Of a DNA stretch of 64,000 nucleotides, positions 44,720 through 46,136 are shown in pieces. The stretch covers positions 627,501 to 691,500 of the forward strand of contig CANNCO010000003.1 of assembly GCA_947503175.1 (NCBI GenBank), read 5' to 3'. The position numbers were made by a program, and so were the translations under genes. The DNA comes from an uncultured Paracoccaceae bacterium (GTDB lineage Bacteria > Pseudomonadota > Alphaproteobacteria > Rhodobacterales > Rhodobacteraceae). The notes beneath the pieces were generated by a model that did not search any database, had not been told where the DNA came from, and worked only from the letters and a program-made list of their open reading frames with translations. Position 1 is the first letter of the stretch. Each line of letters starts with the position of its first letter.

Positions 44720-45139
44720 TCACTCCGGATCGACCCCACCGCGCAGCGCCTTCACCGCCCCACGCTTTTTCTTGGCATCGACCCGCTTCCGTTTCTGGTT
44801 CAGCGACACCCGCGTCGGCACCCGCCGCTTGGGCCGCTCGCACGCCTTGCGGATCAGATCGGCCAGCCGCTCCCGCGCCAGGTCCCGGTTCCGTGCCTGA
44901 CTGCGCTCCTCGCTCACCTGCAGCACGATCGCTCCGTCCTTGGTCCAGCGCCGTCCGGCCAGCCGTTTGAGCCGCGCCTTTACCGGATCGGGCAGGTTGG
45001 GTGACCGCGCTGCCTCGAACCGCAACTCCACCGCCGTCGCCACTTTGTTCACGTTCTGCCCGCCGGGGCCGCCCGCGCGCACGAACTGCTCGGTGATTTC
45101 CCAATCCTCGATCGTGATCTGGTCGTTCACGTTAATCAT
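44720..45139 (-). CDS. arfB: Alternative ribosome-rescue peptidyl-tRNA hydrolase
   Basis: RAGGPGGQNVNKVATAVELRF GGQ motif and basic C-terminal tail. Confidence 0.93.
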   Translation of the reverse strand: MINVNDQITIEDWEITEQFVRAGGPGGQNVNKVATAVELRFEAARSPNLPDPVKARLKRLAGRRWTKDGAIVLQVSEERSQARNRDLARERLADLIRKACERPKRRVPTRVSLNQKRKRVDAKKKRGAVKALRGGVDPE

Positions 45140-45201: not shown

Positions 45202-45230
45202 AAAAGGGCCACCGGATGTCGGTGGCCCTT
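45202..45230 (-). terminator. Rho-independent terminator of small minus-strand transcript
   Basis: AAGGGCCACCG-ACATC-CGGTGGCCCTTTT on the minus strand. Confidence 0.85.
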
Positions 45231-45302
45231 CGAGTCATTCAGAGATGGGCCAGTTAGGACTGGAGCCCAATCAGGAGTGTTTTCTACCCAGGGCTGCCTG
45301 GG

Positions 45303-45356
45303 TCAGACGGTCCCCCCGACTGTTCCGACACCTCTCTCCAATATCACTCTCGACAC
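45303..45356 (-). CDS. 17-aa small ORF MSRVILERGVGTVGGTV (GTG start)
   Basis: Preceded by GAAAGGAGGTGGTCCA (45358-45372), complementary to the 16S 3' tail. Confidence 0.5.
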   Translation of the reverse strand: MSRVILERGVGTVGGTV

Positions 45357-45425
45357 TGGACCACCTCCTTTCGTTTGTTACCGATAGGGGAAGGTTGGCA
45401 CAGATATTGCGTTTGTCAAAACAAA

Positions 45426-46046
45426 TTACGCTACCTGTGGCGTCATTCGCCTCACAATCATGCGAAACGGCACCAGCGCGATCAAAGCAAGGGCAAGTTT
45501 CACACCCCAATCCGCAATCGCCAGCGACACCCAAAGCGGCGCTTCGGGGCCCGTTCCGAGGATCGGCAGGATCTCTCCTGCCCAGCTCACGTCATTGGAA
45601 GGTTCAATGAAAACAAGGGTCTGGCTGAAGGCGATGGTAAAGAACAGTGCCGTATCCACGCTCGACCCGATCACGCTCGACGCAAGCGGCGCCCGCCACC
45701 ACGATCCTTCGCGGAGGCGATTAAAGACGGCAATATCAAGAAGTTGCGCCGTCAGGAATGCAATCCCGCTGCCAATCGCGATGCGCAGCGTCACCAGCGG
45801 CCCGAACTCGCCCACGATCTGCGTCCCGATCAGCGAACAGGCGACACCTGTCAAAAACCCAATGAAAACAACGCGCCGGGCGATCTGCGTCCCATAAACG
45901 CGGTTCATCACATCCGTCACAAGAAACGCAATCGGATAGGTGAACGCCCCCCATGTCAGCCATTGACCGAACAGGAACTGCACAAGGATATTCGATGCCA
46001 CCACGACGGCGGCCATGGCGATGACGCCAGGAAGCATTTGTTTCAT
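45426..46046 (-). CDS. Queuosine precursor transporter (VUT/YhhQ family)
   Basis: Multi-TM; NILVQFLFGQWLTWGAFTYPIAFLVTDVMNRVYGTQIARRVV. Confidence 0.88.
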   Translation of the reverse strand: MKQMLPGVIAMAAVVVASNILVQFLFGQWLTWGAFTYPIAFLVTDVMNRVYGTQIARRVVFIGFLTGVACSLIGTQIVGEFGPLVTLRIAIGSGIAFLTAQLLDIAVFNRLREGSWWRAPLASSVIGSSVDTALFFTIAFSQTLVFIEPSNDVSWAGEILPILGTGPEAPLWVSLAIADWGVKLALALIALVPFRMIVRRMTPQVA

Positions 46047-46054
46047 AAGGTTTT

Positions 46055-46082
46055 TCCGTTTTTTCAAGGTAGCGGAGACTTG
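46055..46082 (-). promoter_or_regulatory. preQ1-I-like riboswitch aptamer
   Basis: Minus strand CAAG-UCUCCGCUAC-CUUG-AAAAAA-CGGA: P1 CAAG/CUUG, pseudoknot UCCG/CGGA, A-rich tail, GCUAC core; 8 nt upstream of ATG. Confidence 0.7.
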
Positions 46083-46136
46083 GCCCCGCACCGTGCGGGA
46101 CGCCGCCAGATAACGGATCGTCCGGACAGGATCAAG

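Follow-up and report, generated by a model that had tools for sequence, protein, structure and literature searches.

Genomic context and layout of the locus

The window, by which we mean the whole 64,000-nucleotide stretch of DNA that was analysed, contains on its minus strand a short intergenic element that lies downstream of a gene of the Vut_1 family and upstream of a gene encoding an ArfB-type peptidyl-tRNA hydrolase (Table 1). A preliminary description of this DNA had placed the element between arfB and a queuosine transporter, and the matches to PF00472 and PF02592 back both assignments. The parts that it had named on the minus strand, namely a TTGACA promoter, a Shine-Dalgarno (SD) sequence, a GTG-started 17-codon open reading frame (ORF), a hairpin with a CAGC loop, a second hairpin and a terminator, are likewise all present in the sequence.

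Table 1 Coordinates of the small-RNA locus and its flanking genes in the window.
Feature	Coordinates	Strand	Evidence
Upstream neighbour, Vut_1 family (yhhQ, queuosine-precursor transporter type)	45426..46091	-	PF02592 E=2e-29
Promoter: -35 TTGACA (45419-45414), 16-nt spacer with TGTGC at its end, -10 CAACCT (45397-45392)	45392..45419	-	sequence
A/C-rich leader AACAAA; class consensus CAACAA	45374..45379	-	information content, 183 loci
Extended SD GAAAGGAGGTGGTCCAG, complementary to 16S CUGGAUCACCUCCUUUC, 17 nt, one G-U	45356..45372	-	sequence, duplex energy
GTG-started 17-codon ORF, TGA stop (45305-45303)	45303..45356	-	start/stop conservation in relatives
Helix P1, start-codon hairpin: UCCAGUGUC (45360-45352) / GAUAUUGGA (45345-45337)	45337..45360	-	pairing and covariation
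Helix P2, perfect hairpin ACCCAGG-CAGC-CCTGGGT; first base is last base of stop codon	45286..45303	-	sequence and relatives
Second hairpin GGGCTCCAGT/ACTGGCCC	45268-45247	-	sequence
Internal anti-SD-like segment AACTGGCCCATCTC, can pair with GAGGUGGUCCAGU	45242..45255	-	SD-pairing z in relatives
Intrinsic terminator AGGGCCACCG-ACATC-CGGTGGCCCT-TTT; stem 45229-45205	45202..45229	-	sequence and relatives
Downstream neighbour, ArfB-type peptidyl-tRNA hydrolase, GGQ motif	44720..45139	-	PF00472 E=8e-22

The predicted transcription start site lies at about 45386-45384, and the short leader between the -10 element and the SD reads TAACAAAC. A generic promoter and terminator scan of the window detected neither the promoter nor the terminator of this gene. 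The TTGACA...TCTGTGNCANNCT promoter can nevertheless be anchored in 62 of the 69 loci of the Rhodobacter type, and a terminator-like hairpin followed by a T tract is present in 179 of 183 copies. The conservation of both signals indicates an independent transcription unit, and the element is read here as a putative autonomous small-RNA gene with its own promoter and terminator and a predicted RNA of ~180 nt, as part of the tentative overall explanation developed below. Folding of the 190-nt window RNA gave a z of -4.7. The 5' half of the internal anti-SD-like segment has an alternative pairing, namely the second hairpin.

Relationship to RF01867 and distribution

An Rfam search aligned the window RNA with RF01867 (Caulobacter sRNA CC2171) over model positions 1-159 of 159, with an E-value of about 1e-5 and a score of 37.3 bits, which lies below the curated gathering cut-off of 75. 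The window RNA and RF01867 have in common the 5' module AACAA.CGAAAGGAGGUG.UCCAGUGUC; more generally, the two groups share a module of the form CAACAA-n-GAAAGGAGGUGAUCCAGUGUC, a similar length and a 3' terminator, and differ in the middle region and its closing helices. The long-range helix CAUUGUC/GACAAUG that closes the middle region of RF01867 is absent, and the Rhodobacter type has P1 and the anti-SD segment instead. On sequence grounds, the window copy is a divergent, sub-threshold relative of RF01867 CC2171. For the preliminary description, an Rfam hit revealing a known RNA would have spoken against its proposal; this applies in part, since a homologous family does exist, but the match is below threshold and no reported function was found for it. 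RF01867 is named in Rfam 15 and in a Mesorhizobium huakuii survey, there as candidate MH_s33, and the portions of the literature on this family that were accessible yielded no published function.

By DNA similarity, 91 of the 121 genomes sampled from the window's family contain a relative, and the pattern AAAGGAGGTGRTCNNRTG occurs in 86 of the same 121, nearly always once, with zero matches to a reversed-pattern control. The union of the two lists places the gene in ~100 of the 121 genomes. Fourteen genomes were reached by similarity only; most of these carry a recognisable variant of the module and a few are not cleanly anchored. Among 196 genomes sampled across the class, RF01867 at E<=0.01 matched 46, the weakest of which are doubtful and several of which lack the module, and a strict pattern matched 37. 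The RF01867 search also retrieves Sphingomonas-, Rhizobiaceae- and Rhodobacter-type copies. The matches listed in a scan of GTDB contigs include Sphingomonas, Novosphingobium, Erythrobacter, Methylobacterium, Bosea, Bradyrhizobium, Mesorhizobium, Ancylobacter, Roseococcus and Hyphomonadaceae, among others. Of the 101 genomes in the family to which a Rhizobiaceae genome belongs, 55 have the pattern. A detectable copy is missing from many genomes, most small ones included, and a PLSDB search with the window sequence returned no plasmid-borne copies. As judged from these searches, the gene is scattered through many alphaproteobacterial families, usually with one copy per genome. The genome of Methylobacterium isbiliense (G318, locus L118) has two module matches instead of the usual single copy. 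An isolated pattern match outside the Alphaproteobacteria, with a different ORF, lies in the Gemmatimonadota MAG CP070812.1 (L152), maybe by chance or through a binning error.

The copies were sorted by peptide patterns into types that carry our own labels (RHO, SPH, CAU, MSS and BRA). Genes at the loci were called by codon-position GC, and names of genes outside the window were read from the sequence with no family search. Of the 70 Rhodobacter-type loci, 54 have Vut_1/yhhQ on the upstream side and 39 have arfB on the downstream side. In the Sphingomonas type, 8 of the 22 copies precede a branched-chain aminotransferase-like gene, and the neighbours vary in the other types. Leader-peptide attenuators likewise combine a short ORF with competing hairpins and a terminator behind it, but here no downstream gene is fixed across orders and the terminator ends an independent transcript. 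Because the neighbours change between orders, a leader for arfB or for the Vut_1 transporter was rejected, and the leader-peptide reading offered earlier is unsupported on these grounds, together with the terminator that closes the element. The link to arfB looks coincidental.

Complementarity to the 3' end of 16S rRNA

The SD stretch GAAAGGAGGTGGTCCA starts at 45372, and its complementarity to the 16S rRNA, GAAAGGAGGUGGUCCAG, extends over 17 nt with one G-U pair; the single G-U had been recognised in the preliminary description, which gave the length as 14 nt. The 16S 3' end used there (...GCGGCTGGATCACCTCCTTTCTAAGGATG) is right for the order, as records of Rhodobacterales and of Methylobacterium confirm. 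A search of the window's own assembly with RF00177 detected no 16S rRNA gene; of the 14 known genomes that served as its control only 9 were positive, and the rRNA may be masked. The tail was therefore taken from relatives.

The SD duplex upstream of the window start codon has a computed energy of -29.3 kcal/mol (-32.4 kcal/mol in its best 20-nt window) versus -19.9 kcal/mol for the best unrelated start, and is by far the strongest among all starts in the window. Allowing at most one mismatch, the 17-mer occurs in the 4-Mb genome at the SD site and at one site within a reading frame, and nowhere else. A chance SD is ruled out by this genome-wide rarity, the duplex energy and the family pattern without reversed-pattern matches.

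The information content of 183 copies is nearly flat upstream save for the -35 region, rises sharply from -9 to -4 (CAACAA) and is near-complete from GAAAGGAGGTG through NTGTC, a profile in which the search pattern enforces part of the conservation. Copies found by similarity only were fetched as well for that reason. The recognisable ones keep the AAGGAGGTG core, except for one with an upstream change, and in some of them TGATCC is replaced by TGCTTC, TGCTCT or TGGCC. In Caulobacter, 75.4% of genes are reported to initiate without an SD (PMC4117421). The namesake host of the family is thus mostly SD-less, yet this sRNA family keeps a near-complete match to the 16S tail.

Conservation of the reading frame and variation of the peptide

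The window ORF encodes the peptide VSRVILERGVGTVGGTV in 17 codons, and most relatives have 18. A stop is found at codon 19 in 65 of 70 Rhodobacter-type copies, as TGA in 29, TAG in 26, TAA in 10 and TGG in none (Fisher 3e-10 over the 70 copies, uncorrected for relatedness). A common stop position is likewise seen in 21 of the 22 copies of the Sphingomonas type and in all 8 of the Bradyrhizobium type. In the other frames, about half of the Rhodobacter-type copies share the place of their first stop, whose position is scattered in the Sphingomonas type. The NTG start codon is retained in the loci found by RF01867. Since start and stop codons are both conserved, translation appears to be selected. 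In Caulobacter, two earlier ncRNAs are reported to be actually translated (PMC4117421). The Rfam entry describes an sRNA, whereas the start and stop conservation seen here argues for translation; the results suggest that RF01867 is translated and has a wider reach than its cut-off implies.

The encoded peptide behaves differently. For the Rhodobacter type, pN/pS is 0.70 in both frame 0 and frame 1 and 0.88 in frame 2, and frame 0 exceeds the other frames in the Sphingomonas and Bradyrhizobium types; by this test, a weak one for 18 codons in a structured RNA, there is no coding-type selection on the peptide. The peptides vary by order, with the patterns VSRVILERGVGTV.., MSHGSAxxSV.., VSxxKRCHLAGIAR, VSHCHxP..TWIxAS and MSSDF...EQPL. 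A conserved peptide is thus unsupported both by pN/pS and by comparison across orders, and a literature search for the peptide strings returned unrelated text only among the matches listed.

The start and stop codons could also be explained if the RNA were a small mRNA for a functional micropeptide, its strong SD giving high output and the RNA conservation being incidental. The near-universal Ser at codon 2, encoded with a variable third base, would fit such a role, as would the LE..GVGT common in the Rhodobacter type. S. meliloti SEP1 offers a precedent: this Rhizobiaceae-conserved protein of 23 aa and pI 4.18 is reported to have the top translation efficiency among unannotated sORFs and to be detected by Western blot (PMC10117765). 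Copies in the Rhizobiaceae family are similar in length, encoding 20-29 aa and in many cases 22-23 aa, and SEP1 may for this reason itself be a member of the sRNA family; several of these copies are acidic. The micropeptide is nonetheless unlikely in our estimate, given that pN/pS in the real frame is no lower than in the others, that codons 4, 5 and 13-18 are free to vary, that the peptides are unrelated between orders and that one RNA motif, GGAGCAGCCTC, is read in two frames, as EQPL in most Rhizobiaceae-family genomes and as RSSL in others. At individual loci, the GGAGCAGCCTC hairpin motif is read as RSSL in L337, L348, L350, L352, L377 and L379 and as EQPL or EQPP in L334, L335 and L371.

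The dual-function sRNA that had been proposed from the sequence is supported in part: the conserved start and stop favour a translated ORF, whereas the peptide shows no coding-type selection. Spot 42/SpfP, Pos19 and rnTrpL/peTrpL are likewise small structured RNAs with a short ORF, whose translation in the present case is deduced from start and stop conservation; they differ in that the peTrpL and SpfP peptides are reported to matter and the peptide here is unconserved. Selection would thus act on the act of translation and not on the peptide, which is part of the same tentative overall explanation. A widespread, mostly single-copy RNA gene in which translation is selected and the peptide is not would be unusual.

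Secondary structure of the RNA

Helix P1 pairs UCCAGUGUC, which holds the start codon, with GAUAUUGGA in codons 4-7. In 61 distinct Rhodobacteraceae-like segments, 90.5% of the cells are paired at P1, versus 35-49% when the strands are slid. The covariation analysis that the preliminary description had called for gave partial backing: six both-side changes in P1 exceed the shuffle maximum of four, but such changes are few and the statistics ignore relatedness. The P1 partner also tracks the start region, with CUGG opposite AGUG in the Caulobacter and Bradyrhizobium types, and with UUGG opposite AAUG and CGG opposite GAUG in the MSS type, which has AATG and GATG starts (Fisher 5e-4).

Partition-function folding of the first 130 nt of each copy was compared with controls. 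In the Rhodobacter type the start codon has an unpaired probability of 0.13 versus 0.52 in the control, and the SD core is more exposed (0.64 versus 0.47). The start codon is unpaired with a probability of 0.01 versus 0.34 in the Bradyrhizobium type and 0.25 versus 0.37 in the Caulobacter type, and the Sphingomonas and MSS (Rhizobiaceae) types show little or no masking relative to controls. The prediction of a masked start codon is thus strong in the Rhodobacter and Bradyrhizobium types and moderate in the Caulobacter type.

Helix P2, defined by a C[AG][AG]C (CARC-type) loop and a stem of at least 5 bp, is present in 42% of the copies of the Rhodobacter type and 59% of those of the MSS type, versus 2% of shuffles. 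In clear examples of both types its loop lies ~69-77 nt from the SD, though their ORFs differ. Pairing with the SD is also possible for a segment that precedes the terminator (AACUGGCCCAUCUCC), at a mean z of -2.3 over 70 Rhodobacter-type copies, and CUCC of this internal anti-SD is conserved in >90%. In the Sphingomonas type, pairing of the internal anti-SD with the SD is not above chance. Because the P1 and anti-SD pairings use parts of the 5' module, these parts would have competing partners, the 16S tail on the one hand and the RNA itself on the other.

Proposed mechanism and alternative explanations

The explanation that we favour, while putting it somewhat below an even chance, is that the gene specifies an autonomous, translated and structured sRNA whose masked start codon is opened by the invading 16S tail, and in which translation rather than the peptide is the point. 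In the closed form P1 and P2 would be folded and the SD partly paired with the internal anti-SD. The free 16S tail of a 30S subunit would use the exposed SD core (GAAAGGAGGUG) as its toehold and could then displace the 3' strand of P1, since UCCAG of the P1 5' strand lies in the same 16S-complementary stretch. Displacement of P1 would free the start codon, and the ribosome would translate the short ORF up to the stop at or near P2, melting P2 and leaving the RNA in an open, ribosome-loaded form. Ribosome traffic would in this way toggle the RNA between the closed and open forms. Several Rhodobacteraceae have UGCUUC or UGCUCU instead of UGAUCC, and this weakens the case for strand invasion throughout the family. 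The most likely use of such an RNA would be as a regulatory RNA whose activity or stability is set by ribosome loading.

A more specific and, to our mind, doubtful version holds that the RNA is a switch whose ligand is the 16S tail. The 30S subunit would displace a self-made copy of the tail (the CUGGAUC-like strand of P1) and open the start, and passage through an ORF of irrelevant sequence would signal to a partner, either RNA or protein, how available ribosomes are. If the RNA were ribosome-gated, it would let bacteria gauge free 30S subunits directly through an RNA.

STAB-SD sequences, reportedly described by Agaisse and Lereclus in 1996, affect RNA stability rather than initiation. They share long complementarity to the 16S 3' tail with the present RNA, as do the extended SDs of S. 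aureus, which serve ordinary genes (PMC13009471). By analogy, the SD stretch might mainly protect the 5' end through ribosome binding while the downstream hairpin RNA acts on other RNAs; a precedent for STAB-SD is cited in PMC10783764. The position of the SD near the predicted 5' end, the short ORF and the structured 3' part with its conserved CARC-loop hairpin are consistent with such protection, which we nonetheless hold to be improbable: STAB-SD sites need no start codon, and here the SD is followed by a conserved start codon and the stop is kept as well.

The ribosome-binding decoy that had been suggested earlier, an RNA that would titrate 30S subunits or block their 16S tail and be translated only incidentally, gains from the extended 16S match, as the complement spans the whole free tail with a duplex of about -29 to -32 kcal/mol. 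A pure decoy would need neither a conserved start codon nor a conserved stop position, and the conservation of both weakens it; the gene is also single-copy and the match is shortened in several variants, so that we give a decoy little credence. A CrfA-like sponge role towards sRNAs of the anti-SD type, among them the alphaR8 family (SisA-D) with its UUUCCUCCCU able to pair with GGAGG (PMC12559287), is very improbable, as this pairing accounts for the GGAGG core only, whereas 16S accounts for the conserved A tract and UGAUCC, and start and stop conservation would be left unexplained.

Copies on viral-labelled contigs

Several copies, mostly of the Bradyrhizobium type, lie on contigs labelled as viral (L062, L063, L065, L067, L073 and L078). 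These contigs may include host DNA that flanks a prophage, or phages may carry the gene. On IMGVR_UViG_3300038438_000009 (L084) a Caulobacter-type copy occupies the contig end, from 9759 onward, and differs from the related locus L208 in the sequence upstream of AAAGGAGG, possibly marking a prophage junction at the gene. Near the end of contig IMGVR_UViG_3300023200_000007 (L066) lies a minimal version, CAACAATCG-AAAGGAGGTGATCAAGTGTCACCTCCTTTTT, which forms a perfect hairpin with the SD paired to its own anti-SD and has an ORF of 7 codons.
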